Source of the DNA: a virus
IMG/VR virus record: IMGVR_UViG_3300012582_000194
Coordinates: 62,001-126,000 of that record
Strand: one strand, 5' to 3'
Length of the DNA stretch: 64,000 bases
In this document: one piece after another, positions 8,159 through 63,556 of the stretch
Layout of the letters: each line of letters begins with the position of its first letter
How positions within the stretch are numbered: position 1 is the first letter of the stretch
Notes under the pieces: model-generated
Told to the model about the DNA's origin: nothing
The model's database searches: none
The model's input: the letters and a program-made list of their open reading frames with translations, nothing else
Made by a program: the position numbers and the translations under genes

Positions 8159-8725
8159 TTATTTGTATGAACCTATTCCATCAAATCCACCAGATGATTT
8201 AACAGGCTTTTTGATAAAATGTTTAGACATTTTACCTAAATATACATCACAATCATTATCAAATGCTTGACAATTGCATTTTCTTGAAAATTCTTCTACT
8301 TTAGCAACAGCATCATCATAATGAAGTCCACTACATACAACTTCGCAATCAGTATCACTTTGTTTATCAATACCTAATCTTTCACCATTATTTGTCATAC
8401 ATTTAATAATACACCAATCAGCTTTAGGTGTAGTAGAGAAATTGTCATTTGGATTAAATCCAGTAGAAACTGGTAAGTCGACTTCTGGTTTTGGACAAAT
8501 TGCTATTACGCCATCTTCCATAGCATCAATTTCTTCTTCTTTAGATGCATCACCTGTTTTAACTTTTACTTCAATTTCCAATGAATCTTCAACATTTTCA
8601 GCTTCGACATCATTTTCTACACCATATTCCAATTTATCTTCAATATCTTTAATGGTTTCTTCTTCATTTTCATTTAGATAACCATTTTTATAATTCTCGT
8701 ATGTTTTTAAATATTTACTTTTCAT
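8159..8725 (-). CDS. Tagged acidic and Cys-rich protein, unknown function
   Basis: The 188-residue protein opens with MKSKYLKTYENYKNGYLNE, one of at least nine similar N-terminal tags in this window. An acidic stretch (about residues 20-75) follows, then a domain with eight cysteines from CPKP through WCIIKC, DCEVVC and KCNCQ to DCDVY. Paired cysteines suggest metal binding or disulfides. No known family was recognised. The tag ends in LNE, compatible with T4-type prohead protease cleavage after Glu, which is inference. A TAATATATAC motif lies 22 bases upstream. Confidence 0.6.
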   Translation of the reverse strand: MKSKYLKTYENYKNGYLNENEEETIKDIEDKLEYGVENDVEAENVEDSLEIEVKVKTGDASKEEEIDAMEDGVIAICPKPEVDLPVSTGFNPNDNFSTTPKADWCIIKCMTNNGERLGIDKQSDTDCEVVCSGLHYDDAVAKVEEFSRKCNCQAFDNDCDVYLGKMSKHFIKKPVKSSGGFDGIGSYK

Positions 8726-8747
8726 ATGAAAAAGTCTATGTTTTTCT

Positions 8748-8757
8748 GTATATATTA
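8748..8757 (-). promoter_or_regulatory. TATATA-type candidate late promoter of a tagged gene
   Basis: TAATATATAC, 22 bases before the tagged Cys-rich protein's ATG. Confidence 0.4.
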
Positions 8758-8813
8758 AAAATTATACTCATATTTCTAAACTTTGCTTATAAAATAATTA
8801 TTATTATAATAAG

Positions 8814-8844
8814 TTGGAATTATGCTATTAAATACTTAACTTTG
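8814..8844 (+). promoter_or_regulatory. Host-type promoter for the sigma-factor gene
   Basis: TTG (8814-8816), 20-base spacer, TAACTTTG (8837-8844). This is the Bacteroidota TTG/TAnnTTTG pattern, 21 bases before the ATG. Confidence 0.6.
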
Positions 8845-8865
8845 TATTATAGTTAATAAATAATT

Positions 8866-9408
8866 ATGAAAGAGGCGGACAAAAATAACGAGAGTGTAGT
8901 AACTTTATCTGTTAAAGAAATGACTGATAAGTTCATGGGCGTAAGAGGTGTGCTTTTTAGACATATTATGTTTAAATTCTATCTTAATAGAGATGATGCT
9001 GATGATTTACTTCAAGATGTATATTATAAAATGTTAAATAATATACACAAATTCAAATCTGATACAAATTTCAAAGCATGGGCTTATACAATTACGTCAA
9101 GATTGTTTATTGATAAGTATAGAGTTAGCAAAAAAAACCAATGTGTTGACGTGGAAGATGATACATTAGAATTAATGTTAAAATCTGATAGAAATGGGAG
9201 CGATTCGTTATTCTTAATACAGGATATTAAGAAAGCTATTGCCGCTATTAAGAATCCAAGAGATAAACGATTAGCTGAAATGTACTACGATGGCTTTAAA
9301 TACGAAGAGATGGTAGATGAATTAAAAGTACCTATGGGTACTATCAAAGGTAGGTTACATAATGTTAAAGCGTATTTGGCCAAAGAATTAGCAATGTATA
9401 ATGTATAA
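8866..9408 (+). CDS. ECF-type RNA polymerase sigma factor
   Basis: This 180-residue protein has the two-domain layout of extracytoplasmic-function sigma factors. Region 2 covers about residues 25-95 (DADDLLQDVYYKM, then FKAWAYTITSRLFIDKYR). Region 4 covers about residues 125-175 and holds a helix-turn-helix (YEEMVDELKVPMGTIKGRLHN). Such proteins bind host core RNA polymerase and redirect it to new promoters. The gene has its own host-type promoter and a strong terminator, so it is a single-gene early-type unit. It is a natural candidate to read the recurrent TATATA motif before virion genes, which is inference. No anti-sigma gene is adjacent. Confidence 0.88.
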   Translation: MKEADKNNESVVTLSVKEMTDKFMGVRGVLFRHIMFKFYLNRDDADDLLQDVYYKMLNNIHKFKSDTNFKAWAYTITSRLFIDKYRVSKKNQCVDVEDDTLELMLKSDRNGSDSLFLIQDIKKAIAAIKNPRDKRLAEMYYDGFKYEEMVDELKVPMGTIKGRLHNVKAYLAKELAMYNV

Positions 9409-9410
9409 AA

Positions 9411-9441
9411 TAAAGGGAGATTTAATCTCCCTTTATTTTTT
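9411..9441 (+). terminator. Strong hairpin terminator
   Basis: Ten-bp stem TAAAGGGAGA/TCTCCCTTTA with a five-base loop, then a T-run, three bases after the sigma-factor stop. Confidence 0.85.
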
Positions 9442-9456
9442 TAATATAAAAATTAA

Positions 9457-9765
9457 ATGAAAATAATATTATCTATACCTGTTTATATTAATATTATTCC
9501 TAAAGGAGTTAATTATTATAAAAATATTGATATTGAATGTACTTTTATTAAAAGAAAATATAACAATTTTAAATTGAATAAAGATGATTTAATTTCTAAA
9601 TTGGGTGTATTTTTTTCGGATTCACATAATCAAAAAATAAACATTAATTGTTCTACTTGCTTTACTTTGGAGTCGGGTATTAATTTAGAAGATTATCCAA
9701 ACTTCATTATATTAGAAAGGACTTTAAAAAGTCATAGAGATATTATTATAGAATCTCTTCTATAG
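9457..9765 (+). CDS. Hypothetical protein, 102 aa
   Basis: The start is ATG 21 bases after the sigma-factor terminator. The protein begins with an isoleucine-rich strand (MKIILSIPVYINIIP) and contains CSTC near residue 66. No family or domain is recognised. Its 3' end overlaps by 20 bases the 3' end of the convergent HAD gene. No clear promoter lies between the terminator and the start, so expression may depend on read-through. Confidence 0.5.
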   Translation: MKIILSIPVYINIIPKGVNYYKNIDIECTFIKRKYNNFKLNKDDLISKLGVFFSDSHNQKININCSTCFTLESGINLEDYPNFIILERTLKSHRDIIIESLL

Positions 9766-10450
9766 CATTTTCAACTTTAATTGATTCGTATTCTACATTA
9801 GGAAATTTGGAAGCCATCATTTTATCTACGGCTTTTATAGTTTTTCTATTATCATCATAAAAATATACTTTAGTTGGATTATATTCAAATATTAATTGCG
9901 ATATAACATCCGATTTCCATTTAGGTGTTGTTCCTGAATTACCTGGATATGTAAATAAGCCTCTATTTGGTAATTCTAAATTAAATTTAGTCAAACAATC
10001 TTTAACTTTATCTTCCATTCTAAAACTTCTTGCTGTAATTATAGCTTTATTTTTAGCCATTTTGTATATATGTGCAATTTCGGGATTTACTTCAGTTGGT
10101 AAACTAATATCGGATAAGCTAAATTGTGTAGGACTTGTCATATAGATTCTACTACCTTTAACCACCCAATTTTTTACATTAGGTGTTATTTGGAAGCGTT
10201 GTTCATTGAGTACGTATATTCTACCATTTTCATGTTTTAAATCGTTTACAGAAGCTCCTATTTCATTTAAACAAATATTTAATAATGATGAAAGAGTGTG
10301 TCCTTCATTTAAAGTTTGAATAATCAAATCATTAAAGTATGGAGACCTTACAAGGGTATCATCGAAGTCAAAAATATAGAGTTCTTCTATTTTATGCGAT
10401 GCATTTTCAGCAGAAAAATTTTCAAATGTTTTAATGTGTTTACTTCCCAT
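9746..10450 (-). CDS. Tagged HAD-superfamily phosphatase
   Basis: After the tag MGSKHIKTFENFSAEN, HAD motif I appears as FDFDDTLV (nucleophile Asp28, acid Asp30). Motif II may be MTSPTQF. A conserved Lys lies in the KNKAIITARS or WKSD segment, and motif IV is VYFYDDN. HAD enzymes of this size remove phosphate from nucleic-acid ends, nucleotides or sugars. A separate polynucleotide-kinase-like gene sits at 47332, so the pair could be a split version of T4 Pnkp, which is inference. A TAATATATAA motif ends four bases before the start codon. Confidence 0.75.
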   Translation of the reverse strand: MGSKHIKTFENFSAENASHKIEELYIFDFDDTLVRSPYFNDLIIQTLNEGHTLSSLLNICLNEIGASVNDLKHENGRIYVLNEQRFQITPNVKNWVVKGSRIYMTSPTQFSLSDISLPTEVNPEIAHIYKMAKNKAIITARSFRMEDKVKDCLTKFNLELPNRGLFTYPGNSGTTPKWKSDVISQLIFEYNPTKVYFYDDNRKTIKAVDKMMASKFPNVEYESIKVENAIEEIL

Positions 10451-10454
10451 TGTA

Positions 10455-10464
10455 TTATATATTA
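10455..10464 (-). promoter_or_regulatory. TATATA-type motif of the tagged HAD gene, leaderless spacing
   Basis: TAATATATAA, ending four bases before the ATG. Confidence 0.35.
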
Positions 10465-10480
10465 ATACTAAAGGGTTATA

Positions 10481-10513
10481 AAAAAGGGGAAGTTTTTAAC
10501 TCCCCCTTTTTTT
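10481..10513 (-). terminator. Bidirectional hairpin terminator
   Basis: AAAAAGGGG pairs with CCCCTTTTT around an inner AGTT/AACT stem, one mismatch between. It ends the 740-aa gene on the minus strand. Confidence 0.8.
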
Positions 10514-10517
10514 GATA

Positions 10518-12740
10518 TTAAATTTCAGCTATTAAATCATTACTTCTATAACCATTTTCTTCTCCGTTGCTCCATACAACGTTGTATGGATAATAATCGT
10601 CTTCCCATGGTTCGCGATTAAACACTTGTGTGATTGTTCCAATATTTTCTGGTGCTTGTTCATAAAACTTAGAATTGGTTTTAAGTTTTACACGAGTTTC
10701 TACACCTACTAAATTGGTATCAACAATGTCAACCCAAACCATTTTCTTTTTCAACTTCTTAATGAACGTTCTCACAGTTTCATAAGTATTGCCTGTTTTT
10801 TGAACAAGTAAATCATTTAAAGTATATGTGTTAGTATTTCCATTTTTCCAAGTAATTGAAATACTACCATTTGATTTAGTATTATCAACTACACCATTTG
10901 TACCTTGTGATTGATTTAAATATTGACTTCCTGGTTTTAGTTTAACTACATCACCTTTCTTTATTTCTTTAACTGATGTGAAGTCTCCTGATGAGTAATC
11001 CCAATCATAGCTCAATTCCAAAATCGCTGAACCATCATTTTTCATTAATAAATTTTCAACACCTGGCTCTAACCCATACGCGATTAGTTCTTCTACTTGA
11101 GCATGTGAAAGATTTAGCCACAGCTTATCTTCGCTATAAAATATATTAAATTTTGATGCTATCTTAGCAAGAACAGCACCATCAATAAGTTTAGTCTTGG
11201 CAAAGTCAACAACATTCTTAAGAGTGATTCTATCAGTAAAAGAATCATCAAATTTAGCCATCATTTTTAATTGAGAATCATTGTAATTATCAATTGACGA
11301 TTTGAATAATTCTGGTTTTTCTTTAACAATTTTTTCATTAAGTGTATCTGATGTAATATCAGTCATTAAAAAGTTTTGAGAATCACCTTTGATATTTCTA
11401 ATCCAACCATTAACATTATTAACTCTAACATATGGATGTGTAAGAACATCAACTAATTGTTCGTGATATTCTTTGTTATATTTTTTCTTACTGATATTTT
11501 TAATTTTATCACCAAGTTGAAAACGTGTAAAGTCATTGCTGTCATAATTCATTGCAATGAAAGTGAGCGGAACATCATTTTTATCAAAAAGAACTAATAC
11601 AGTATTGCAGTTATCCGTAAGATGTCCACTTCCAGCATTGAAAATATTTTCGGGTGTTTCAATATCTGACCAATAGAAACCATTATCATATTTAATAAAT
11701 GGCTTCTTGGGCAACATCTTGTTAAGAATATCTCTTTTCTTATGATAGTGACTATTACCTTGTGGTGTACCGTCAAGTCTATCCCATCTTTCGAGCCAAT
11801 TCAAATCTTTAGGACTTCTATCTTTATCATTTCTATGTGAGATAAGAACTGGTACAAGATTTTCACCTTCTAATTTATAACCAAAGAATCTCATTGTATC
11901 AGCATAAGGTTTTCTTATTCTAGAATAATCTAGAATAGGAGGAATATAAACTAACATTTTAGGATCATTGTGTACTTTTACACCATCACTAATTTCTCTA
12001 AATGGGACATGTGTTTCTTGATTTGTACCTTGTCTCATTTTAAACCACCAACCTTTTTGAATAGCATAGTTTTTAAATGTTTCTTCCAATGGTGCATCCA
12101 TAGTATAAATTCTATCCATGAATGTTACTTTACCTATATTCTCAATTCCAACATTTTCCCAAATCAAAGCTCTACCAATTAAAAGTCCTTTTTCATTGAA
12201 AAGACAAAGCATTGAAATGTCATCATTATTTTCATAAACACTAAAAAATGTATTACATTTTTCGTGTCTCATACAAGAACCATACAAACTTCTTCCTGGA
12301 TTTTGTCCTTCCCCGCTATATTGACTTAAATCGTATGTTTCTTGATTGTAATATTTAGTGATGTCTTTACCTTTAACTAATTTAAAATTGTGTGGGTTTT
12401 GTGTGGTTTTATATTCATTGACAAATTGTTCAATTTCTTTGTCAATAAAATTAAGTCCTTTATTTTGAAGAAATGCTCTAATAACTTTACCAATAGCAAC
12501 CTGTTGTCTACCTTTAGTCCACTTGTCTTTATCGGGCAATTCCTCTTTAGTTTTATGGCAAAACTCTTTCCCAGCAGGAAGCCATGAAATCATCCCATCT
12601 GCTTTATCGAAGTCAATATAAGAGTTCTCTAAAAGATTCTCTTTGTTATTGTGTGCATCAACAAGAATTTTAGCATATGGGTGTGTCATTTGTGATAACA
12701 CGGAAATCAATTTGCTACTTAGTATGATTCTCTTTTCCAA
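10518..12740 (-). CDS. Large conserved phage-type protein with two KOW/SH3-like C-terminal domains
   Basis: The 740-residue protein uses a TTG start. No in-frame ATG precedes it and two host-type promoters lie upstream. The N-terminal two thirds include the motif YGSCMRHEKC near residue 154, followed by GLLIGRALIWENV, a segment I associate with uncharacterised large-phage proteins. The last 150 residues hold two similar SH3/KOW-like domains: KKGDVVKLKPGS to ITWKNGNTNTYTLNDLL, and RVKLKTNSKFYE to VVWSNGEENGYRSNDLI. No catalytic signature is recognised. It ends before a strong hairpin terminator. Confidence 0.6.
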   Translation of the reverse strand: MEKRIILSSKLISVLSQMTHPYAKILVDAHNNKENLLENSYIDFDKADGMISWLPAGKEFCHKTKEELPDKDKWTKGRQQVAIGKVIRAFLQNKGLNFIDKEIEQFVNEYKTTQNPHNFKLVKGKDITKYYNQETYDLSQYSGEGQNPGRSLYGSCMRHEKCNTFFSVYENNDDISMLCLFNEKGLLIGRALIWENVGIENIGKVTFMDRIYTMDAPLEETFKNYAIQKGWWFKMRQGTNQETHVPFREISDGVKVHNDPKMLVYIPPILDYSRIRKPYADTMRFFGYKLEGENLVPVLISHRNDKDRSPKDLNWLERWDRLDGTPQGNSHYHKKRDILNKMLPKKPFIKYDNGFYWSDIETPENIFNAGSGHLTDNCNTVLVLFDKNDVPLTFIAMNYDSNDFTRFQLGDKIKNISKKKYNKEYHEQLVDVLTHPYVRVNNVNGWIRNIKGDSQNFLMTDITSDTLNEKIVKEKPELFKSSIDNYNDSQLKMMAKFDDSFTDRITLKNVVDFAKTKLIDGAVLAKIASKFNIFYSEDKLWLNLSHAQVEELIAYGLEPGVENLLMKNDGSAILELSYDWDYSSGDFTSVKEIKKGDVVKLKPGSQYLNQSQGTNGVVDNTKSNGSISITWKNGNTNTYTLNDLLVQKTGNTYETVRTFIKKLKKKMVWVDIVDTNLVGVETRVKLKTNSKFYEQAPENIGTITQVFNREPWEDDYYPYNVVWSNGEENGYRSNDLIAEI

Positions 12741-12764
12741 TTGAGTTATAATTTAAATTCCTTA

Positions 12765-12795
12765 CAAATATACAAACCTTTTTTCAAAAAACAAA
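12765..12795 (-). promoter_or_regulatory. Host-type promoter for the 740-aa gene, proximal
   Basis: On the minus strand TTTG (12795-12792), 19-base spacer, TATATTTG (12772-12765), 24 bases before the TTG start codon, supporting that unusual start. Confidence 0.6.
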
Positions 12796-12854
12796 GAAAT
12801 TAATAAAAATATTTAATTTCAAGCTATTTTCCCATAGTTTTTTGAGTTTAAATA

Positions 12855-12886
12855 CAAATATAGAGAAATGTTATCAACTATACAAA
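12855..12886 (-). promoter_or_regulatory. Host-type promoter for the 740-aa gene, distal
   Basis: A second TTTG-N20-TATATTTG arrangement on the minus strand, 90 bases upstream of the proximal one, giving tandem promoters. Confidence 0.5.
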
Positions 12887-12890
12887 TAAA

Positions 12891-12914
12891 AAAAGGAGTT
12901 TTTCAACTCCTTTT
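12891..12914 (-). terminator. Hairpin terminator overlapping a stop codon
   Basis: AAAAGGAGTT/AACTCCTTTT with a four-base loop. The stop of the coiled-coil membrane gene lies in one arm. Confidence 0.75.
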
Positions 12915-14031: not shown

Positions 14032-14044
14032 ATTAAATATAGTT

Positions 14045-14104
14045 TTACGAATATTGTATTCCTAATTTTAGATTTGTTTTAAAATAGGGATACAATATTC
14101 GTAA
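14045..14104. repeat. Long inverted repeat, 20-bp arms
   Basis: Arms at 14045-14064 and 14085-14104 (TTACGAATATTGTAT then CCTA-type ends) pair over 20 positions with a single G-U wobble in RNA, around a 20-base spacer. It lies between the ClpC-like gene's stop and the membrane gene's start. No T-run follows on either strand, so it is not a standard terminator. Confidence 0.8.
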
Positions 14105-14126
14105 TTATCTATTATATATCTGATAA

Positions 14127-18943: not shown

Positions 18944-19309
18944 CTATTCTTCTTTATCATCTCTTTTATTTTTAGCATCTATAGATGAATATTTCACACC
19001 AACCCAATCGGTAGGTAATTTATTCTGAATACTTTTAAAAACATCTTTATTAATTGGCTTATCCATATCTTTAAGTCTCTTTTTAAAAGAATATTCCATT
19101 GAATTTAAAATTGTGTTAATTTCATCTTCGTTAAAAGTTGCTTTATTTCCATTTAATAGTTTAAATAGTGCATTTTTAGAGTTTTCGGCAGTTTTTTTCT
19201 TAGAATATTCGACTTTGCTCCAAAGGTATTCTCTTTCTTCTTTATTTATAGAAACTGATTCGTTCATATTTTCATTATTTTTATGAAATTCTTCAAAATT
19301 TTTAATCAT
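18944..19309 (-). CDS. Tagged small charged protein
   Basis: I take the start as ATG at 19309. An in-frame ATG at 19321 adds only MYIY. From 19309 the protein begins MIKNFEEFHKNNENMNES, matching the N-terminal tag family, with a possible cleavage point after MNE. The rest (about 100 residues) is highly charged and helical, with no known domain. It ends in TAG, which is rare here. Its upstream region is shared with the divergent 19384 gene. Confidence 0.55.
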   Translation of the reverse strand: MIKNFEEFHKNNENMNESVSINKEEREYLWSKVEYSKKKTAENSKNALFKLLNGNKATFNEDEINTILNSMEYSFKKRLKDMDKPINKDVFKSIQNKLPTDWVGVKYSSIDAKNKRDDKEE

Positions 19310-19346
19310 GTAAATATACAATTTTATTTATATATTGTCAAATTTT

Positions 19347-24537: not shown

Positions 24538-25434
24538 TTAAGCAACATTTTTTGGAATATCCTTTTTAACATAATCTTTAAATTCTCCAACAGTAATTTG
24601 CCCATCTTTATTTAAATCTACACCTGGATTTTGTTGAGCTACCTTCTTACCACCTAATGCATCATCATCATCTTTACCTAATCCAATAGGATAAAAAGTT
24701 ATCATATAGAGGTCTTCTACTGAATGAATTTTACCTGTATATTTTTCAAAATATTTAAAAATTAAATCTAGCTGATTTAAGGCTGGCATTTTACGAATTT
24801 CTTCTACAGATGTATTTAACCCTCGTGCTGTTGATGGTATAAATTGTAACAAGCCACTAGCACCTGAGTATTTGTTCACTATAGTTGGTGAAAAACTTGA
24901 TTCTTTTTTAATTACATAGGATAACCAATTAGCTTTAATTTGTAATTTCTTACTTATCTCATACAATTTAGCTATAAATTCTTCTGGGTTTTCTATATTT
25001 TTAACAATTAAATCTTGGTAAATTAACTCACTATCATTTTCTAATTGTTTAGACAATTCTTCAAAATGTTTTTTAATTATTTCTTTAGCCTTATCATTTT
25101 GAGCCAACTGATAAATAATTGATTGTTGTTCTGGTGTTACTGTATTATTTTTTATTTCTAAATCACCTTTAACAAGATTAGATAAATCTTTATTGGTTTT
25201 AATTAAATGTAATAGTGATTTAACCTGTCCCATCGTTTCTGCGCCAAAAATACTATCTATATAAAAGCGTGTTAAATGAAATCCTAATATTTCAAGTGAT
25301 GTTTGTAAATTTTTAACACCTTCTGAATTTTGCATCCATGTAATAGATTTATATAATTCTTTAGCATCCTTTTCAGCTTCTATTTTATCATTTCCCCAAA
25401 AAAGGAATTCATTTACAGTTTTGAAATATTTCAT
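24538..25434 (-). CDS. Tagged lytic transglycosylase with PG-binding and EF-hand motifs
   Basis: After the tag MKYFKTVNEFLFWGND, residues 39-77 resemble peptidoglycan-binding domain 1 (VKNLQTSLEILGF, SIFGAETMGQV). Residues 168-250 form a soluble lytic transglycosylase domain with catalytic Glu178 in KKESSFSP and the motif SGASGLLQFIPSTA. A canonical EF-hand loop DLNKDGQITVGE lies at 273-284. The enzyme would cleave murein glycan strands. It could be a virion-borne entry enzyme or a lysis enzyme. No signal peptide or membrane segment is present, and the tag favours packaging. A TATATA-type motif ends three bases before the start. Confidence 0.85.
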   Translation of the reverse strand: MKYFKTVNEFLFWGNDKIEAEKDAKELYKSITWMQNSEGVKNLQTSLEILGFHLTRFYIDSIFGAETMGQVKSLLHLIKTNKDLSNLVKGDLEIKNNTVTPEQQSIIYQLAQNDKAKEIIKKHFEELSKQLENDSELIYQDLIVKNIENPEEFIAKLYEISKKLQIKANWLSYVIKKESSFSPTIVNKYSGASGLLQFIPSTARGLNTSVEEIRKMPALNQLDLIFKYFEKYTGKIHSVEDLYMITFYPIGLGKDDDDALGGKKVAQQNPGVDLNKDGQITVGEFKDYVKKDIPKNVA

Positions 25435-35293: not shown

Positions 35294-36868
35294 TTATATC
35301 TTAGGTTCAGCGGATAATATATCTTCTGATGTATTTTCTCTATATTGATTAAAATTATTTATAAATGATGTAGCTAATTTAGCTAATTGTTCATTATATT
35401 CATTTTCACTACTCCATAAATATTTTTGATTTAATACTTTAAATGGGACATCCTCACATGATGTTGGATAGCTTAAATTAAATATTGGTAAATTATCAAA
35501 TTCTATATTATCAAAATCACCATTCAGTGCAGCGTTAATTAATAATCTTGTATACTTTAATTCAATTCTATTACCAATACCGTATCCACCACCTATCCAT
35601 CCAGTATTTACTAACCAAACGTTTACTTTATGTTCGTGAATTTTTTTACCAAACATTTCGGCATATTTCGATGGGTGTAATGGTAAAAATGCTTTACCAA
35701 AACATGCAGAAAATGTTAATTGTGGTTCGGTAATATTCATCTCAGTACCCGCAACTTTTGATGTATATCCTGAAATAAAATGATACATTGCTTGTTCTGT
35801 AGTTAATTTTGAAATTGGTGGTAATACACCAGTTGCATCACAAGTCAAAAAGAAAATGTTATTAGGTATATTTCCAATAGATGGTGATATAGCATTATCA
35901 ATAAATGATAAAGGGTATGATACTCTTGTATTTTCTGTTATTGATACATCTGAGAAATTAACTTTATTTGAATTTTCAAAGAATTTAATATTCTCTAATA
36001 TAGATCCATATTTAATTGCTTTGAATACCGCTGGTTCTTTTTCTTCGGATAAATTTGCTGTTTTAGCATAACAACCACCTTCAAAGTTAAAAACACTTTT
36101 ATCTGACCAACCATGTTCATCATCACCAATGAGTTTTCTATTTGGAACATTTGAAATTGTAGATTTTCCCGTCCCAGAAAGCCCGTAATATAAAGCAGTA
36201 TCACCACTCTCCCCAATATTAGCTGAACAGTGCATGGGTAATACATTGTGTTCATTTGGTAGTATGTAATTTAAAATAGTAAATATACCTTTTTTAATTT
36301 CTCCTGTATAACCACTACCACCAATTAATAATATTTTTTTACTAAAATTGATGATGGTGAAATTATGCTGTCTTGTACCATCTTTCAGTGGGTTTGCTTT
36401 GAATGATGGTACGCATAATATTATCCAATCATGTTTAAATGTCTTCAATTCATCTTCGGTAGGCCTTAAAAACATATTGTAAGCAAAAAGATTTGACCAA
36501 GGTTTCTCAGTAATTACTTTAATATTAAGTTTATATTTTTCATCAGCACATACATAGCTATCTCTAATATAAATTTCTTTATGTTTAAGATAGCTAATCA
36601 TTTTGTTGTAAATTTTGTTGAAGTTATCGGCTTCAAATTTATTATTTACATCACCCCACCATATAGTATCTTTTGTAATATCATCATAAACAACATATTT
36701 ATCTTTTGGTGAGCGGCCAGTAAATTCACCAGTATCTATTGCTAAACTATCAGTAGAAGTTATAACACCTTCTCCAATACTAACAGTTTTATCAATTAGT
36801 TTGGATGGTGATAAATTATAATAAATTTTGGAATTATTAAGTCCTATGCTTTTTATAAAATTTTTCAT
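35294..36868 (-). CDS. pckA: Phosphoenolpyruvate carboxykinase (ATP)
   Basis: At 524 residues this is a full-length ATP-dependent PEPCK, which interconverts oxaloacetate plus ATP and phosphoenolpyruvate, CO2 and ADP. The substrate Arg is in TGRSPKDK (Arg52), HCSANIGE precedes the P-loop GLSGTGKST (229-237), and the metal site is IGDDEHGW (247-254). EGGCYAK, TRVSYPLSFID and TCDATGVLPP are all present, so the enzyme appears functional. It could redirect carbon during infection. The gene lies between virion genes, downstream of a 116-aa gene with a six-base gap. Codon and base use match its phage neighbours. Confidence 0.96.
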   Translation of the reverse strand: MKNFIKSIGLNNSKIYYNLSPSKLIDKTVSIGEGVITSTDSLAIDTGEFTGRSPKDKYVVYDDITKDTIWWGDVNNKFEADNFNKIYNKMISYLKHKEIYIRDSYVCADEKYKLNIKVITEKPWSNLFAYNMFLRPTEDELKTFKHDWIILCVPSFKANPLKDGTRQHNFTIINFSKKILLIGGSGYTGEIKKGIFTILNYILPNEHNVLPMHCSANIGESGDTALYYGLSGTGKSTISNVPNRKLIGDDEHGWSDKSVFNFEGGCYAKTANLSEEKEPAVFKAIKYGSILENIKFFENSNKVNFSDVSITENTRVSYPLSFIDNAISPSIGNIPNNIFFLTCDATGVLPPISKLTTEQAMYHFISGYTSKVAGTEMNITEPQLTFSACFGKAFLPLHPSKYAEMFGKKIHEHKVNVWLVNTGWIGGGYGIGNRIELKYTRLLINAALNGDFDNIEFDNLPIFNLSYPTSCEDVPFKVLNQKYLWSSENEYNEQLAKLATSFINNFNQYRENTSEDILSAEPKI

Positions 36869-37306: not shown

Positions 37307-37966
37307 ATGATTTTACTATTTGAAGAGTATAATCCTCTTATGGATTTGAATAATGATGTAAAGGATCATTTATCTCAATTTCCTTACTTAAGTTATACTA
37401 TAAAGGATGAAGATAATGGTATAGTATTAACATTTAATAAAGATGTTTCATTAAAATACGTTAAAGGTATTTTAGATCCTTTCAAAATTGAAGTTAAAAA
37501 TGAATTTCCAGTAAAAATTAAAGTTATTTCTAAAAAACTAGTTGATTCTTTTGAAGAATTTAACGGTAAGCTTATAATTGGTCCTACAGAGAAAATTGAT
37601 ATTCCAACATTAAATTTAAAAGGAATTTCGGTAAAAATTGATAGCGGAGCGACCTGTTCTAGTATGGGTGTGTCTTGGTTACATGTAGATAAAAAAAATA
37701 AAAAAGTTAGTTTTTTACCATTGGATAAAACATATCCACAATATGTAAATAAAAAATTTACTTTACCTTTGATTGAAGAAGTTAGTGTTCAAAACTCTAG
37801 TGGTAAACAAGAATTAAGACCATTAATTAAATTAGATATTATAATTAAGGGTAAAACATACGAAACATTTTTTTCATTAGCTAGTCGTAGAGAATTAGAA
37901 TTTCCTATATTAATTGGTCGTGATGCGTTATCTGGAAGATTTTTAATAGATATTTCTACTATATAA
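37307..37966 (+). CDS. Retropepsin-like aspartic peptidase (RimB/Zn_protease family)
   Basis: Residues from about 90 onward resemble the family once called putative ATP-dependent zinc protease. They show the catalytic DSGA-type motif KIDSGATCSSM, the strand QELRPLIKLDIIIKG, and the signature LEFPILIGRDALSGRFLIDIS. Relatives are retropepsin-like aspartic peptidases; bacterial members include one that processes the RimK-modified ribosome tail. The N-terminus MILLFEEYNPLMDLN is a weak member of the tag family. Role could be capsid maturation or host proteolysis; both are speculative. A TAATATATAG motif ends 17 bases upstream and AAAAGGG lies between. Confidence 0.72.
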   Translation: MILLFEEYNPLMDLNNDVKDHLSQFPYLSYTIKDEDNGIVLTFNKDVSLKYVKGILDPFKIEVKNEFPVKIKVISKKLVDSFEEFNGKLIIGPTEKIDIPTLNLKGISVKIDSGATCSSMGVSWLHVDKKNKKVSFLPLDKTYPQYVNKKFTLPLIEEVSVQNSSGKQELRPLIKLDIIIKGKTYETFFSLASRRELEFPILIGRDALSGRFLIDISTI

Positions 37967-53801: not shown

Positions 53802-54803
53802 ATGAGTAAGTTAAAAAGATTGAAATCTTTTAGTGATTATAAACAGGATATGGGAAATACACCAAAATCTACTCCTGTACCATTGGTTTCGGAAAGAAAT
53901 TTACATAAAAGTGTAGTTACTAAACAAAGAATGGTGAAAGAATCTGCTTTTAAAGTGGGTGATGATTATAAAGTAAAGGTTACTTTTGATATTCCTGTAT
54001 CATTAATATCTGCTTATATTGAAAAAGTACAATCTGAAACAGGTAAAAATGCTTTAGAACATTTTAATGAAACTGAGTTGGCTGAACAAATGGCTCAATA
54101 CATACTAAAACAACATTTAAATATTGATCAAATACCGTCAGCATTATCAGTTGGTGAAGATCCTAATAGTTCTGAATCTACAGAAGCGCAAGAAGAAAAT
54201 GATGCTACTGATTTAGGTGCTGAATTTGGTGATACGCCATCGGGTGAAACAGCAGAACCAGGTATTGAAGAAACACCATCAACAGATACACCATCTAATA
54301 TTGATATTAATGATTCTGATTTAAATATTGATAAAGAAGAAGATGGAGAAGATATATCATTAGAAGATGATAATAAAGAAGAGGTTGGTGAAGACATTCC
54401 ATTAGAAGATGAAACTTCTGAAGAACCTGAATCCGAAACAAAAGAAGATCAAGATGAAAAAGAAATTAACTTAAAAAGTGATGAAGTAAATCTTGGTGAA
54501 GAAAGAGAGATTGAAGCAAATAAAATAGAAGAACAAGAAGAAGAATATGAAGAAATAAATCTTGATGTTGATACTATTGGTGATACAACAGGTGTATTGA
54601 ATAGTGTTACTATGGCTACTAAAGATATGTTATTCTATCTTAAACATCATGGAATAGATTGTACTGATTGTACAGCCAAAGATGTTGTAGATATTTATAA
54701 TGAAATATCAAAAGAATATACAATTGGAATTGATGATGATGGTAATGAAATAAAGCCAAGTCATAAAGAAGATTCCGATTTTAATGATTCTGATTTGTAC
54801 TAA
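53802..54803 (+). CDS. Tagged protein with long acidic domain, scaffold-like
   Basis: The N-terminus MSKLKRLKSFSDYKQDMGN belongs to the tag family. A small ordered domain (KVKVTFDIPVSLISAYIEKV, 55-105) precedes about 140 residues dominated by Glu and Asp with Ser/Thr/Pro, then a C-terminal domain (MATKDMLFYLKHHGIDCTDC). T4 prohead core proteins are likewise acidic and helical, so a scaffold or internal-head role is possible but unproven. An AAATATATAC motif lies 22 bases upstream and the next tagged gene follows after 19 bases. Confidence 0.55.
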   Translation: MSKLKRLKSFSDYKQDMGNTPKSTPVPLVSERNLHKSVVTKQRMVKESAFKVGDDYKVKVTFDIPVSLISAYIEKVQSETGKNALEHFNETELAEQMAQYILKQHLNIDQIPSALSVGEDPNSSESTEAQEENDATDLGAEFGDTPSGETAEPGIEETPSTDTPSNIDINDSDLNIDKEEDGEDISLEDDNKEEVGEDIPLEDETSEEPESETKEDQDEKEINLKSDEVNLGEEREIEANKIEEQEEEYEEINLDVDTIGDTTGVLNSVTMATKDMLFYLKHHGIDCTDCTAKDVVDIYNEISKEYTIGIDDDGNEIKPSHKEDSDFNDSDLY

Positions 54804-54822: not shown

Positions 54823-55092
54823 ATGAGTAAATATAAATATTTAACAAATTTTAAACAATTTGAATCACCTTATGGGAAAGATTCCAATGGTACACAGACA
54901 TCACATATGTATAAAGTTGGTGATAATGTTATAGTAGATGACATTAACGAAAAACATGCTGGTAAAGAAGGTGTCATTGTAGTACCTACTGATTTACATG
55001 AAGTAAAAGAAAAACAAGGTGAAATGGTAAAAGTGAAATTTACCGATGGTAAATCGGATTATGTAAGTATCTATGAATTAAACAAGATATAA
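54823..55092 (+). CDS. Tagged KOW-like small protein
   Basis: After MSKYKYLTNFKQFESPYG, the remaining 65 residues form a KOW/SH3-like barrel (YKVGDNVIVDDINEKHAGKE, VKVKFTDGKSDYVSIYEL). Combination of tag and small nucleic-acid-binding-type fold is consistent with an internal head protein, by inference. It is co-transcribed with the acidic tagged gene and closed by a hairpin terminator. Confidence 0.55.
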   Translation: MSKYKYLTNFKQFESPYGKDSNGTQTSHMYKVGDNVIVDDINEKHAGKEGVIVVPTDLHEVKEKQGEMVKVKFTDGKSDYVSIYELNKI

Positions 55093-57021: not shown

Positions 57022-57384
57022 TTAATTATCCTTTAATATAATTAAATATTTTCTATTTGTAATAGGAGATATATTTTCTTTTATTGTCCAATTATTATCC
57101 GATAATTTCATTTTAAATAATCTTAATCTTATATCACATAAAACATATAAACGAATTTCGGTATAGTTTACACTTTTAATTATATTTTTTATTTTTTTAT
57201 AAAAATTTGGTTCAGGTTTTCCAATTTTATTAAATGAATAGGTGTCTGTATCAATATCATAATATGCAATATCTAAATCTACTGTTTTCTTATCCCTTTC
57301 TTCTAAAATTATTTTATATTCTCCTATATAAAACACATTTTTATTGGAAGAATCGTAATTTTCAAATAATTTGATATATTTCAT
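57022..57384 (-). CDS. Tagged small beta-rich protein
   Basis: The 120-residue protein starts MKYIKLFENYDSSNKN, a clear tag-family member. A beta-rich domain follows (YIGEYKIILEERDKKTVDLD, IRLYVLCDIRLRLFKMKL) with no recognised family. A TTATATATAG motif lies 15 bases upstream, as for several other tagged genes. Confidence 0.5.
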   Translation of the reverse strand: MKYIKLFENYDSSNKNVFYIGEYKIILEERDKKTVDLDIAYYDIDTDTYSFNKIGKPEPNFYKKIKNIIKSVNYTEIRLYVLCDIRLRLFKMKLSDNNWTIKENISPITNRKYLIILKDN

Positions 57385-57399: not shown

Positions 57400-57409
57400 C
57401 TATATATAA
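57400..57409 (-). promoter_or_regulatory. TATATA-type candidate late promoter of a tagged gene
   Basis: TTATATATAG, 15 bases before the tagged 120-aa gene. Confidence 0.4.
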
Positions 57410-57450
57410 AACAAAAATTACTTTTTAAGTAGAATAGTAAATCTTGACAT

Positions 57451-58206: not shown

Positions 58207-58221
58207 AAATAATAATGATAT

Positions 58222-59157: not shown

Positions 59158-59158
59158 A

Positions 59159-59392
59159 ATGAAACTTGGTGTTTTATACCATGATGGAAAGATAGTAAAT
59201 CACCGTCCTCTATTGAAAGTTTTATTAAATCCGATACTAAGAATGTTCGGAATCTGTATTGGTACTAACTTTAAAGATGGTGTTTTGGGTAGTATTATGA
59301 TTATTAAATGCGAAAAAGTAAATAAATTACAATGGGACTTCACCAATCATAATAAATACGATAAGATAGATAGAAAAAGATTATTTATCTAA
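59159..59392 (+). CDS. Hypothetical basic protein, 77 aa
   Basis: I start at ATG 59159, one base after the endonuclease stop; an upstream in-frame ATG at 59147 overlaps that gene. The product (MKLGVLYHDGKIVNHRPLLK) is basic with a hydrophobic middle (VLLNPILRMFGICIG). No family recognised. It may be co-transcribed with the endonuclease. Confidence 0.45.
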   Translation: MKLGVLYHDGKIVNHRPLLKVLLNPILRMFGICIGTNFKDGVLGSIMIIKCEKVNKLQWDFTNHNKYDKIDRKRLFI

Positions 59393-59408
59393 AAAATAAT
59401 ATCACAAT

Positions 59409-60098
59409 GTGTTTGCACTAAAAAAGAATATTTCACAAATTTTAATACCTGCTCTTAGAAAAAATGGTTGTGCATTTGATTTAGCAAAATATATTAATAA
59501 AAGAAATTTAATAATAAATTCTTTATTGGATGAGGATTGTGAAATCGGAGAAGCCTATTCACCATATTTAAAAGGAAATAAGAAAATAAAAATAGTTTTC
59601 TTTAATAGTCACCTTGTTTTAAATGATGATTTGAATAATACTTTAGTTAGAATTGATAACTACATGGATGATGTTGATAATACTGTTAATATTATTAATG
59701 AATATTACCAAGCAAAGTTTTATGAAAAAGATGAAATAAAAGAAATCTTAAAAGATAGAGCAGATGTTGAAAAAATAGAAAAACTACTAGATATTTTTTA
59801 TCCTGATGTTAAAGTAAGAAATTATGGTATTGTTGAAAGTAATTTATATTTATATTTAGGTGCTGGAATTTTTAGTTTTGAAATAAAAACAACAGATACT
59901 AATAAAAGAAGTTGCTTTACTAAAATACATTTTTATGGTAGATCTAGTGGTAAGTATCAAACAAATAATTACGGGCAAATTTGGAATTTAAATTCTAAGT
60001 ATAGATATTTAATATCATTCTCACAAGATCAATTAGAAATTAATGATTTCAATTTTCATAGATACGTAAAAGCCTATAATAAAAGCAAAACTATATAA
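59409..60098 (+). CDS. Hypothetical protein, 229 aa
   Basis: The likely start is GTG at 59409; an ATG two bases earlier is in a different, immediately closed frame. The N-terminal part is helical (ISQILIPALRKNGCAFDLAK) and the C-terminal part is beta-rich (NLYLYLGAGIFSFEIKTTDT). No family recognised. It is convergent with the glycosyltransferase gene, with stops adjacent. Confidence 0.5.
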   Translation: MFALKKNISQILIPALRKNGCAFDLAKYINKRNLIINSLLDEDCEIGEAYSPYLKGNKKIKIVFFNSHLVLNDDLNNTLVRIDNYMDDVDNTVNIINEYYQAKFYEKDEIKEILKDRADVEKIEKLLDIFYPDVKVRNYGIVESNLYLYLGAGIFSFEIKTTDTNKRSCFTKIHFYGRSSGKYQTNNYGQIWNLNSKYRYLISFSQDQLEINDFNFHRYVKAYNKSKTI

Positions 60099-60731
60099 TT
60101 ATTCAGCAGAATGATTTATGAATCTATTTCTAATAGTTGAGAAGTTTGGTACTGTTTCAATTATAGATGGATTAATTGCGTATGATTTTCCTCTTGTGTG
60201 AAAAATTTCTGATGTGATTACATCTATTGGTCTATCGACTTTTTGTAGTTCTTCTAAATATAAATCATATATAGAATTATTTATAGCATACATTTGACAA
60301 CTCCAAGAACCATTTAATTTTATCAATCTATTACCACTCCAATCGGGCTGTATATGGTGTGTTGATGCAAAATGAAATAGTTCCCAATCAGAAGGTAAAC
60401 TAAGCATTGCTTCATCAACCTTTTTATTTGTATTAGGTTTAAATAATAAGTCATCTTCTAAAATAAGAATATTCTTATATCCTTTTGATTTAGCATCATT
60501 GATTATATTAATTGTTGTATAGACAAGCCCAGCAGCACCTTTTGTCCATCCAGGCATTGTAGCAGTATTAGTTTCATCCCAAGTAAAATCAGTTCTATAA
60601 CCATCTACACCTGGAAACACTTCAAATTCTAAATTAATTTGAGAGCATTGATATGTTATTAAATTTAATCTGTCTTGACAAATCAACGGTATATTTATAA
60701 CATATGTGTGATCAAAGTATGTATTTATCAT
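60099..60731 (-). CDS. Glycosyltransferase family 25-like
   Basis: The 210-residue protein fits GT25 (LPS glycosyltransferase type): THYVINIPLICQDRLNLITY-type start with Arg, a small GAAGLVYT segment, the DxD-like NILILEDDLLF, and SCQMYAINNSIYDLYL near the C-terminus. It would transfer a sugar to LPS or to a protein. It lies 15 bases downstream of a fibre gene on the same strand, so fibre glycosylation or modification of the host surface are both plausible. Confidence 0.75.
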   Translation of the reverse strand: MINTYFDHTYVINIPLICQDRLNLITYQCSQINLEFEVFPGVDGYRTDFTWDETNTATMPGWTKGAAGLVYTTINIINDAKSKGYKNILILEDDLLFKPNTNKKVDEAMLSLPSDWELFHFASTHHIQPDWSGNRLIKLNGSWSCQMYAINNSIYDLYLEELQKVDRPIDVITSEIFHTRGKSYAINPSIIETVPNFSTIRNRFINHSAE

Positions 60732-60746
60732 ATTAATATTTATTTT

Positions 60747-62450
60747 TTATGAAATAGAAATAGTAGTTATTGCCCCAGCATTGTCAATTGAAATATACCA
60801 TAACGTATTATCTGGACTTCTACCACTAATTACACTATCAGCTATTGGGTTATTATATGTTTGTGTAGCATCTGAATATACATTAAATGTGGAGTTAGAA
60901 ATTGTACTATTAAAAGTTATATTTTTTACAGTATTATTAAATGCGATATTAGTACAAGTATTATTTATTATTAAATTTGTGCAATTTATTGCGAATTTAC
61001 CAACCGTTACTGAACCTGATGTAGATACTGAAATATTATTACAACCTGTTGCAAATTCAGTAGATGAAATAATACCATCAATTATAATATCATTACACCC
61101 TATATTAAATTCATTGTTAAATAATGTACCATAAGAAACAACACTTTTAGAATTCTTAATCTGTGAACAGTTATTAGATATTCTATTACTTATTGCCCAT
61201 AACATAAAGTTGTCGGTGCAATTATTACCAAGTGAATTATTAGATGAATTGTAAATAACATTATTGCTATTACTTGCGCCAAGTGTATTATTTTTTCCAT
61301 ATTGATTAATATGATTAGATGTAGAGAAATCGCCGATGGTGTTATAAGATGAAATCATATTTAAATAATTATTAGAGCAATTTGATTTTAATGTATTATA
61401 TCTTGCCATATAACCAATGTAATTATTAATACCAGTTTTACCTATTGTATTACCGTGTGCCATACCACCAATAAAGAAATATGTGTTATTACTATCTACG
61501 TATGTGTTGTTTGATGAGTTGATAATAAAATTATTACATCCATAATTTACTGTTGATAAATCTGGTGATATATTATCAACTTCATCAGATATTGTTCCAT
61601 TAAAACAATTTTGTTCAATTTGTATATTAACACCCCTTTTAATTACAATATTATTATATGCTATTGATATATTCTTTTTAACATAACTATTTTTAACATT
61701 ATTTTCAAATGTAAAATATTCAGTTGGAGTATTTGCAGCATAAACAGTACCCCCCAAAAAAGTAATTACTTGATCCCATGATAACATGTTTGCTAAATCG
61801 AGTTGTTCCCAATATTTAGAAAGTAAATCATCTGAAAATGTTCCACTTGTATGTGCTGTCCTACATCTATAAAGAACACTACTTTGGTTAACTATTGTAC
61901 CTATACCGTAAGGAGTTGATGTTACCCATGCAGTAAATAAACCTATAGTTATAGGGTATCTAACAAACTTAACAGTTCTAATATCATAATAAGCAAAGTT
62001 ATTATTAACAGTATCGTGTCTAAATGTTATTTTACCATTTCTTGGTGTTGACGAATCTTCACAAAGAATATCCTGAAAATCATAATGAATTAAATCAGTG
62101 GGGAATAATGTTGAATATGCTTGTTTATGAAAAGTATTTGTAGAAACAGATAGTACAAGTAAAGGCTCTGTAGTACCAGTTTTTATTGTGGTTGTGATAG
62201 GTTGTTGATATTTTGTTACATAATCACTTATTGAATAGAATTTACCCACTGATAGATTGCTGTTTGATACTAAAGTCGCTAAATTTGCATACGTTATAGC
62301 TTCAGTATTAATTAAATCATTTGAGTTAAGAATGGATGATATTTTACCATTTGTACCAAAAACTGGAATAGTACCCGAAGTACCATTAATGGTTTTTGAA
62401 ATTAATTCTTCATTAACGTTATAATTACCAAAAGCTGATTTAAAAGACAT
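60747..62450 (-). CDS. Beta-helix tail fibre or spike with carbohydrate-binding-like module
   Basis: The 567-residue protein starts MSFKSAFGNYNVNEELISKT and has NGTSGTIPVFGTNGK near residue 25. A segment YGIGTIVNQSSVLYRC followed by HTSGTFSDDLLSKYWEQL resembles the CBM5/12-like module found in phage fibres. From residue 270 onward, repeated Asn-rich rungs (NNYIGYMARYNTLKSNCSNN, NNTLGASNSNNVIYNSSNNS) look like a right-handed beta-helix. A TAATATATAC motif lies 20 bases upstream. A glycosyltransferase follows in the same transcript. Confidence 0.75.
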   Translation of the reverse strand: MSFKSAFGNYNVNEELISKTINGTSGTIPVFGTNGKISSILNSNDLINTEAITYANLATLVSNSNLSVGKFYSISDYVTKYQQPITTTIKTGTTEPLLVLSVSTNTFHKQAYSTLFPTDLIHYDFQDILCEDSSTPRNGKITFRHDTVNNNFAYYDIRTVKFVRYPITIGLFTAWVTSTPYGIGTIVNQSSVLYRCRTAHTSGTFSDDLLSKYWEQLDLANMLSWDQVITFLGGTVYAANTPTEYFTFENNVKNSYVKKNISIAYNNIVIKRGVNIQIEQNCFNGTISDEVDNISPDLSTVNYGCNNFIINSSNNTYVDSNNTYFFIGGMAHGNTIGKTGINNYIGYMARYNTLKSNCSNNYLNMISSYNTIGDFSTSNHINQYGKNNTLGASNSNNVIYNSSNNSLGNNCTDNFMLWAISNRISNNCSQIKNSKSVVSYGTLFNNEFNIGCNDIIIDGIISSTEFATGCNNISVSTSGSVTVGKFAINCTNLIINNTCTNIAFNNTVKNITFNSTISNSTFNVYSDATQTYNNPIADSVISGRSPDNTLWYISIDNAGAITTISIS

Positions 62451-62470
62451 TAATTATTAATCTATTTTAG

Positions 62471-62480
62471 GTATATATTA
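62471..62480 (-). promoter_or_regulatory. TATATA-type candidate late promoter
   Basis: TAATATATAC, 20 bases before the beta-helix fibre gene. Confidence 0.4.
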
Positions 62481-62503
62481 TTTTTCTATACCTTTAAAAA
62501 CGA

Positions 62504-62719
62504 TTATAAATTTCGCCATTTTTTAATTTCGTTGACTTTTTGCATTTTGTCCCATGCTCTAGTATTAATACTTGTTAAGTGATATGAACCGCATTTGGTG
62601 CAAAGATAAGAGCGTGATTCTTGCTTTTCCTTGGATTTATACACCTTATTATTTTTAATGTTTAAAAGGACTCTATCAGCTTCATGTTTAGTAAAGTATT
62701 TTCTTTTGAGGCATCCCAT
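62504..62719 (-). CDS. Small zinc-ribbon protein, 71 aa
   Basis: The basic protein (MGCLKRKYFTKHEADRVLLN) contains YLCTKCGSYHLTS, half of a zinc ribbon, with a further Cys at position 3. It could bind nucleic acid. It follows the HD-domain gene after 18 bases on the same strand and is probably co-transcribed. Confidence 0.55.
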   Translation of the reverse strand: MGCLKRKYFTKHEADRVLLNIKNNKVYKSKEKQESRSYLCTKCGSYHLTSINTRAWDKMQKVNEIKKWRNL

Positions 62720-62737
62720 AGCTCACAGGGGTTTAGG

Positions 62738-63556
62738 TTATTTAATTACGTCTTTTCCTAATTCTATCATTCTTTTAAAAACTGCATCCTTATCATTTGG
62801 TAAAGTACCATTTACAATTTCATCTTTCAACTTTTTCTTGATAATTCCGATTTCTCTACCTGGTTTTAGATTAAAATAGTCCATTATCTCTTGACCAGAA
62901 ACAGGTGGCTCAAATGTACGAACTTTATCGGCTTCTTCTAAAGCTATCATTTTAGATTTTAGTACATCAATACTTTTAATATTACTTTGTTTCCTCTCTT
63001 CATTCTTTGTTGTCATATCACATTTAGCGAAGAGTAGTAAATCATCCAAATCATCACCAATATCTAATTTAAATCTCCTAAGAGCAGAATCAGATACATT
63101 AGGGATACATAATACTTTAACTTGACCATGTAAATTAATTAATTTCTTTACATAGTCTATCTTATCCATTGGTAAACTTAAACGTTTGAAAATGTTATCA
63201 ATCATTCTAGCACCAATTTCTTCGTGTAAATGGAATGTCCAACCTAAAGATTTATCATATCTTTTGGATTTAGCTTTTCCAATATCATGTAATATAGAAA
63301 CACAGATTAACCAAGGGTTATCTGTCATATTTCTTGTATTTCTAACAACTTTTATAGTATGCCAAAAATTGTCTTTATGGCCATTATTACCCACCCTTTC
63401 AACTCCCTTTAAAGCAGTTAATTCGGGTAATAGATAATCTAATACCCCCATTTCATTTAGTTTTTCTAAATCTTCCGCAGGAGTATTTGAATGTAAAATG
63501 TTCAAAAAAATCTTAGTTTCCTCTTTAAATGATTCAAATGTCATAAAATATTTCAT
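62738..63556 (-). CDS. Tagged HD-domain protein, C-terminal half of CCA tRNA nucleotidyltransferase
   Basis: After the tag MKYFMTFESFKEET, the protein matches the body, tail and HD part of bacterial CCA-adding enzyme: LLPELTALKGVERVG, HKDNFWHTIKVV, SILHDIGKAKSKRYD (HD motif), FHLHEEIGARM, DDLDDLLLFAKCDMTTKN, and ISGQEIMDYF-like PPVSGQEIMD with LKPGREIGIIKK. The catalytic nucleotidyltransferase head is completely missing and replaced by the tag. The remaining HD site may act as a 2',3'-cyclic phosphodiesterase or phosphatase on tRNA ends. A host-type promoter and a TATATA motif are upstream. Confidence 0.85.
   Translation of the reverse strand: MKYFMTFESFKEETKIFLNILHSNTPAEDLEKLNEMGVLDYLLPELTALKGVERVGNNGHKDNFWHTIKVVRNTRNMTDNPWLICVSILHDIGKAKSKRYDKSLGWTFHLHEEIGARMIDNIFKRLSLPMDKIDYVKKLINLHGQVKVLCIPNVSDSALRRFKLDIGDDLDDLLLFAKCDMTTKNEERKQSNIKSIDVLKSKMIALEEADKVRTFEPPVSGQEIMDYFNLKPGREIGIIKKKLKDEIVNGTLPNDKDAVFKRMIELGKDVIK

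Follow-up and report, generated by a model that had tools for sequence, protein, structure and literature searches.

An N-terminal peptide shared by about 60 otherwise unrelated proteins of a 636-kb uncultured phage resembles the T4 capsid-targeting sequence

The internal proteins IPI, IPII and IPIII of phage T4 are unrelated proteins that share a short N-terminal peptide, the capsid-targeting sequence, with aromatic residues at positions 4 and 7 and, in some of them, a hydrophobic-x-Glu motif behind it. Mutagenesis of IPIII assigns targeting mainly to residues 4 and 7 and processing to residues 8 and 10, and the T4 protease gp21 cuts at L/I-X-E (PMC9026906). Here we describe a similar peptide, the tag, which begins nine genes in a 64,000-base stretch of viral DNA (the window; bases 62,001–126,000 of the 267,884-base virus record IMGVR_UViG_3300012582_000194) and about 60 proteins encoded by the phage genome LR756504.1. 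In phage P1, the first 30 residues of DarB likewise direct a reporter into the capsid, but P1, which we compared by description only, differs in apparently having no separate scaffold (PMC9024508). The giant phages phiKZ and SPN3US also package cleaved proteins that carry propeptides; they differ in that several SPN3US propeptides are longer than 100 residues and in that the phiKZ cleavage motif is S/A-x-E (PMC5694885, PMC9026906). A diverged relative of gp21 is carried by phiKZ (PMC9026906).

A 14,672-base stretch of the window matches LR756504.1 at 100% identity; LR756504.1 is the genome of an uncultured phage, comprises 636,363 bases, was handled in stretches and also contains both ends of the virus record. 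This genome appears to be the 636-kb member of the Mahaphage clade, which has complete genomes of 634, 636, 642 and 735 kb and Bacteroidetes as predicted hosts (PMC7162821). From the genes of LR756504.1 itself we built a seven-residue profile with the core [I/L/M]-K-x-[F/Y]-x-x-[F/Y] near the N-terminus; the seed required aromatics at positions 4 and 7, and the threshold was a score of at least 9. This threshold is reached by 65 of the 912 genes, compared with a mean of 4.4 and a maximum of 10 when the N-termini were shuffled 30 times, an approximately 14-fold excess. Three genes with membrane-like N-termini were removed, which leaves 62, and one of these (LR756504 181583; N-terminus IKNFKSF) encodes a RecF/SMC-like ATPase and is a false positive, so the counts below use 61 or 62 tagged genes. 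An earlier version of the profile found 88 of 912 genes at a score of at least 10, compared with 5.3 in 50 shuffles, and 3 of 1,948 internal methionines. Extended over the full genome and to relatives, the motif search of the original prediction thus gives 62 of 912 genes versus 4.4 in shuffled sequences, and the pattern recurs in the relative LR745206.

The tagged genes are mutually unrelated, with only four pairs (among genes scoring at least 9) matching at a BLAST E value of 1e-5 or better, and the core is mostly preceded by one to six residues (MKY-, MKH- or M-). Positions 4 (3.43 bits) and 7 (3.19 bits) of the profile are the most conserved. Because the profile had been seeded with aromatics, we also counted aromatic pairs independently of it, at spacings of one to seven within residues 2–15 of non-membrane proteins. 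Spacing three is in excess in LR756504.1 (146 pairs versus 96 expected, z 6.6), followed by spacings seven (2.8) and four (2.3), and again in LR745206 (148 versus 92, z 7.6; spacing four, z 6.1), whereas its z is at most 1.3 in T4, P-SSM2 and those portions of phiKZ and phage G that were scored. A free motif search yielded a diffuse motif that was not used, and the spacing test alone was kept from that run. These results confirm that the N-terminal tag in LR756504.1 is real and is shared by about 60 otherwise unrelated proteins.

The profile was trained on LR756504.1 only and never included T4. Applied to T4, it picks out 5 of 252 open reading frames (ORFs): ipI (13.1), ipII (12.0), gene 61.1, one ORF of the tRNA region and one further ORF; ipIII, which is split by a stretch border and was scored alone, also reaches 12.0. 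The two residues used for targeting in T4 are the two most conserved positions of the tag, and T4 residue 10 corresponds to the third residue past its core. T4 gene 61.1 (AF158101 18966–19130) is annotated as hypothetical, and its N-terminus, MKTFKEFIKE, scores like those of the known internal proteins, which makes its product a candidate T4 internal protein.

A cleavage-like motif, hydrophobic-x-Glu (defined as [LIVMF]xE), is enriched behind the tag. In LR756504 it follows the core directly in 12 of 62 tagged genes and 20 of 674 untagged genes, and starts within six residues of the core in 27 and 95 of them, respectively. Directly after the core, it is found in 12 of 70 tagged versus 18 of 698 untagged genes of LR745206, in 62 of 264 versus 14 of 832 at IMG/VR loci that contain the tag pattern, and in 10 of 64 versus 15 of 1,030 at IMG/VR loci chosen by their protease.

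LR756504.1 also encodes head proteins related to those of T4. A match to the S77 (T4 gp21-type) protease family (E = 4.4e-6) lies below the Pfam cut-off, and PF20034 (Peptidase_S80) marginally outscores S77 on this single protein; in 6 of 25 relatives, the S77 match is above the cut-off (best 2.8e-14). A profile of 13 protease relatives retrieves T4 gp21 (5jbl) as the best solved structure (E = 8.7e-5). The motifs D-H-P and S-S-R-A-A-G, which we take to hold the catalytic His and Ser of S77, are invariant in all 13 sequences. The protease gene adjoins that of a gp23-type capsid protein (E = 3e-22), and a portal-like gene, named by eye and position, is nearby. In its N-terminal part the capsid protein has H-x-[I/L/M]-x-E, as do those of 10 relatives; this motif is likely to be a maturation site. 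The family PF03420 was matched in LR756504, LR745206, LR756502, T4, KVP40 and P-SSM2, and was unmatched in phiKZ, SPN3US, G and crAss001.

In LR756504 (185342–187636) and its relatives, protease and scaffold form one protein with 14-residue repeats of the form YS[E/N]Y[I/L/V]AE. The LR756504 fusion contains 11 copies of the motif, and at least 10 loose matches occur in each of 14 protease proteins except that of G002 (4). The repeat unit includes the aromatic spacing together with the L/I-x-E motif that ends many tags. The proteome contains 85 occurrences of [FY]xx[FY][LIVM]xE, spread over 68 of 935 proteins, compared with 39 in the reversed proteome; 11 occurrences are in the scaffold, 26 proteins have it within the first 25 residues and 47 occurrences are elsewhere. 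An AlphaFold model of the family, of low confidence (mean pLDDT 56), suggests that in a relative the repeats may form one long helix of about 200 residues (236–449 of the L262 protein). The 735-kb phage possesses the scaffold repeat yet has few tag-pattern matches.

The resemblance to the T4 capsid-targeting sequence that had been proposed for the window is upheld in most respects by several lines of evidence: the positions of the aromatics, the T4 ip genes among the top hits, the enrichment of hydrophobic-x-Glu, the S77 protease and the gp23-type capsid protein. There are also differences. T4 has a handful of tagged proteins compared with about 55 here, whose packaging is predicted; in LR756504.1 a single protein combines the protease with a repeat scaffold; and for many tags no cleavage motif follows at once.

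Other phages carry their own forms of the peptide. The profile finds 5 of 302 genes in P-SSM2, four of which begin with MK[S/T][F/Y].QF (MK[S/T]F.QF or MKTYQQF), and separate genes for gp21, gp22 and gp23 are annotated in this phage. P-SSM2 differs in that few genes are tagged, in that those four follow the T4 form, their first core residue being Met, and in that gp21 and gp22 yielded no YxxY[I/L]AE repeat. The Sphingomonas phage PAU has an S77-type protease, a related capsid protein and a repeated N-terminus, but in a version of its own, MK[T/S][L/I]xxL[Y/F]E; this pattern has 17 matches in PAU, whereas a search of seven other phages gave none. Thirteen PAU genes between 95 and 145 kb carry this version, and five of them continue with LNEA, LNES or LNEN; two of the 13 are annotated as ‘internal capsid protein’ and one as ‘scaffolding’, names given by the depositors. 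The PAU and LR756504 tags may be lineage-specific versions of one system.

We further compared phages using a tag pattern written for the LR756504 clade, which misses the T4 form, and a reversed-pattern control. Matches exceed the control in LR756504 (45 versus 8), LR745206 (44 versus 7) and LR756502 (60 versus 4); counts are 2 versus 0 in T4, 3 versus 0 in KVP40, 3 versus 3 in P-SSM2, 4 versus 2 in phiKZ, 1 versus 2 in phage G, 0 versus 0 in SPN3US and 1 versus 0 in crAss001. The profile finds none of 184 genes in phiKZ (160 kb) and none of 315 in phage G (240 kb). That the motif is common to giant phages in general is ruled out by these absences from the scored parts of phiKZ and G and by pattern counts close to the control in phiKZ, SPN3US, G and crAss001.

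Tag and protease were sampled from both sides. Among 25 records of at least 100 kb selected by the tag, which are possibly fragments, 13 contain an S77 match, the best match per record lying in a frame of 635–736 residues. From the other side, at least 575 relatives of the protease were confirmed and 80 were kept. The 18 protease-selected records larger than 60 kb (2.1 Mb) contain 140 tag-pattern matches versus 33 for the control, whereas 18 crAss-like records larger than 60 kb (1.7 Mb), found via the crAss001 capsid protein, contain 5 versus 8. Of these 18 protease-selected records, eight had been encountered in the tag-pattern scan as well. Six matches of G032 recur in the overlapping record G010 and two of G033 in G031, so about 132 of the 140 are distinct. 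With the profile, the numbers are 64 of 1,198 genes at protease loci (4.2 in shuffles) and 1 of 267 at crAss loci (0.7). Contigs chosen by the protease are enriched in tags, and crAss-like contigs are not.

We consider that the tag is most probably a T4-type capsid-targeting sequence specific to its lineage and placed on about 55 cargo proteins, most but not all of which are expected to be packaged. The tag has those sequence-level features of such a targeting sequence that we examined, except that the immediate cleavage motif is present in part of the set only. The mechanism, from binding to the core and cleavage to packaging, injection and late expression, is our inference. Tagged proteins would be made late, and the N-terminal peptide, chiefly its two aromatics three residues apart, would bring them to the core inside the prohead, and this core would be built from the scaffold part of the protease–scaffold protein. 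The S77 protease would then cut after Glu at nearby hydrophobic-x-Glu sites in the tags, the scaffold and the propeptide of the capsid protein. Once freed, the proteins would be retained alongside the DNA inside the head and would pass into the host together with it.

Several observations weigh against this proposal. No hydrophobic-x-Glu motif starts within six residues of the core in 35 of the 62 LR756504 tags, and 23 have none within 20 residues, a distance at which 249 of 674 untagged genes contain the motif in any case; at the protease loci, the excess vanishes when the motif is sought within 12 residues (25 of 64 versus 303 of 1,030, p 0.12). Only 13 of the 25 tagged records, fragmentary as they may be, contain the S77 match. 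Some protease-bearing relatives are near the control in pattern matches (12 versus 11 in the 735-kb phage, 15 versus 9 in Lak-A1; PTm1 has 6 versus 1), so the protease does not demand a tag of the LR756504 type. The scaffold repeat was not seen in the core proteins of T4, P-SSM2, PTm1 or PAU, except for one motif in PAU gp155. One of the 62 hits is the RecF/SMC-like false positive, the weakly tagged transglycosylase of the window may just as well act in the tail or in lysis, and the ten window genes taken for contrast were hand-picked as untagged. A literature search found no virion proteomics of the LR756504 clade; searched by titles, with subscription papers and preprints outside its scope, it also found no report of a capsid-targeting sequence in these huge phages.

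What the tagged proteins are bears on an explanation that keeps the targeting function and changes its purpose: most tagged proteins might serve head assembly, as core or scaffold helpers that either remain in the head or leave it, and not the next host. T4 IPIII also affects head assembly (PMC9026906), tagged proteins show a slight acidic bias (net charge per residue, median −0.018 versus 0.0) and, in LR745206, a tagged NFACT-R gene directly follows the capsid gene. This 129-residue protein has homologs at 28 of 80 protease loci, 16 of which score at least 9, and the two that were tested are NFACT-R by Pfam; at the other protease loci, its gene is mostly about 2 kb past the protease gene. However, the tagged proteins are diverse and some carry enzyme domains. 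A Pfam scan that covered 46 of the 62 tagged proteins and three weakly tagged ones placed five of the 46 above the cut-off (WG repeats, PG_binding_1, FMN_red, AAA_25 and AAA_23, the last being the false positive), and the weakly tagged SLT, PF05618 and HD with tRNA_NucTran2_2 are also above it. Nudix and the head domain of the poly(A)-polymerase/CCA type occur on tagged proteins of LR745206. Across two such genomes, the tagged domains are Nudix, CCA-adding-enzyme head, NFACT-R and FMN-reductase-like, with HD and transglycosylase weakly tagged. Tagged genes are also seldom shared: LR745206 contains homologs of 8 of the 65 genes scoring at least 9 (the false positive among them), compared with 191 of 847 others, which fits a fast-changing accessory cargo, and homologs are sometimes tagged in one of the two phages and untagged in the other. 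On this evidence, a role confined mostly to head assembly is possible but unlikely.

Some tagged proteins look like enzymes of the producing cell: an AAA ATPase and, both weakly tagged, the SLT and HD/CCA-type proteins. The tag might therefore sort proteins to somewhere other than the capsid, such as a replication compartment, the membrane or the lysis apparatus, and the protease-bearing relatives with few or no tags of the LR756504 type could be read in the same way. Against this, the profile ranks T4 internal head proteins among its top T4 hits and finds none in the scored parts of phiKZ and G, and the head is indicated both by the cleavage-like motif beside the tag and by the association of tags with the protease. 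We regard sorting elsewhere as improbable.

A DNA-level origin is less probable still. Tagged genes commonly have a TATATA box 8–45 bases before the start codon (44 of 61 versus 146 of 643 untagged genes), as would be expected if a gene-start cassette of late promoter, start codon and first codons had been copied and spread by recombination, with the peptide itself functionless. However, all 61 tag-coding 21-mers of LR756504.1 are distinct, and where two tags share a residue, its codon differs with a frequency of 0.41, above the 0.34 expected from the codon usage of the genome, which indicates that the peptide is conserved and not a copied stretch of DNA; LR745206 and T4 also show the pattern at the peptide level. 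Literal copying of a DNA cassette is ruled out by the first two of these results, and we hold the cassette explanation to be very improbable. The box itself, given that the capsid and portal genes also carry AATATATA upstream, suggests a late promoter and late expression of the tagged genes. In tagged LR756504 genes, TATATA prefers two distances from the start codon, 10–13 and 24–29 bases; the shorter would leave almost no leader if TATATA were a −10 element.

That the tag merely reflects the composition of an AT-rich genome, in which proteins begin with MK and abound in I, K, F and N, is scarcely credible and is rejected for the set as a whole, being ruled out by the excess over shuffles, the rarity at internal methionines (earlier profile), the spacing test and the crAss-like counts, even though shuffled N-termini still give about four hits, the RecF/SMC-like protein matches, and the weakest three of the nine window genes, like other single members, could be chance.

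All nine window genes that had been reported to begin alike are present at their given places (Table 1). Six of them carry the tag strongly, with scores of at least 9, and the other three are weak. TATATA had been said to precede most of them, and it does so in eight of nine, 10–29 bases ahead of the start.

Table 1 Window genes with like N-termini (cores set off by hyphens; TATATA in bases relative to the start codon)
Product	Residues	Position	Strand	N-terminus	Core DNA	Score	TATATA	Remarks
Acidic protein	188	8159..8725	-	MKSKY-LKTYENY-KNGYLNE	8690-8710	14.3	-29	LNE four residues past core; no Pfam hit
HAD-like protein	234	9746..10450	-	MGSKH-IKTFENF	10415-10435	16.5	-11	Weak PHROG polynucleotide-kinase match; no Pfam match; DFDDT motif by eye
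Tagged protein	121	18944..19309	-	M-IKNFEEF-HKNNENMNE	19286-19306	15.6	-25	MNE six residues past core; no Pfam hit
SLT transglycosylase, weakly tagged	298	24538..25434	-	MKY-FKTVNEF	25405-25425	6.3	-10	PF01464, E 1.1e-8
Putative zinc-protease-like protein, weakly tagged	219	37307..37966	+	M-ILLFEEY	37310-37330	8.4	-24	PF05618, E 2.1e-13
Acidic protein	333	53802..54803	+	MSKLKR-LKSFSDY	53820-53840	13.8	-29	
Small protein	89	54823..55092	+	MSKYKY-LTNFKQF	54841-54861	10.3	Absent from 60 bases upstream	No Pfam hit
Tagged protein	120	57022..57384	-	MKY-IKLFENY	57355-57375	14.6	-24/-22	No Pfam hit
HD-domain protein, weakly tagged	272	62738..63556	-	MKY-FMTFESF	63527-63547	7.9	-12/-10	PF01966, E 1e-8; PF13735, E 2.6e-6

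The LR745206 homolog of the HAD-like protein has a variant N-terminus with a score of 6.0, and the 333-residue acidic protein has a partial homolog in LR745206 that is tagged too. In the 121-residue protein, the tag follows an ATG at 19309, and the ORF list begins at a TTG at 19321. The HD-domain protein resembles the C-terminal part of a CCA-adding enzyme. For contrast, ten window genes were hand-picked as untagged, which is not a survey of early genes; nine of them have families, including ClpB-type AAA, pyridine-nucleotide oxidoreductase, DNA polymerase B, sigma factor, phosphoenolpyruvate carboxykinase, patatin, DnaJ and Nudix. The phosphoenolpyruvate carboxykinase (window 35294–36868; PF01293, E = 6e-213) is a full enzyme encoded in a phage genome, and its N-terminus, MKNFIKS, scored 7.7 in the earlier profile.

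Other gene families are also of note. A small protein with NFACT-R, a domain of the ribosome quality-control type, is encoded at L300:13976–14365, with homologs at 27 other protease loci, and at L189:2508–2897; it often bears the tag, and its gene is close to those of the head. Parts of CCA-adding enzymes recur, and the head-domain protein of LR745206 (L204:16201–17373) is tagged whereas its LR756504 homolog (107701–108867) is untagged. A large paralogous family includes window gene 10518–12740 and LR756504 genes 273014–275044, 299414–301732, 480997–482868 and others; matches to the 273014 protein at an E value of 1e-5 or better extend to 13 further genes, and the family has both tagged and untagged members. 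Several members have, by eye, a hydrophobic-x-E-K stretch just ahead of the shared domain. The 273014 member has no Pfam family, and the PHROG matches of the window member are of unknown function.

We know of no cultured member of the 634–642-kb phage group. There is, in our judgement, an even chance of a broader scheme in which each lineage of the Mahaphage type has its own version of the T4 label, matched to its scaffold core and put freely on proteins for host takeover and repair, such that about 55 proteins would enter the host ahead of all phage gene expression and the genome of any such uncultured phage would reveal its cargo. In its boldest form, the tag would imitate one 14-residue scaffold unit (YxxY[I/L]AE), so that a cargo protein would join the core as a lone repeat and be freed by the same cut. 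As a general rule, a tag copied from the scaffold repeat is unsupported outside the clade, given that the core proteins of T4, P-SSM2, PTm1 and PAU are free of the repeat except for the one motif in PAU gp155.

If the tag is a capsid-targeting sequence, the set of delivered proteins would be readable from the genome and testable protein by protein, and a place and time of action would be assigned to dozens of proteins of unknown function. The internal-protein system of T4 would be widened from a handful of proteins to dozens, and new short tags would become available for loading proteins into phage heads.

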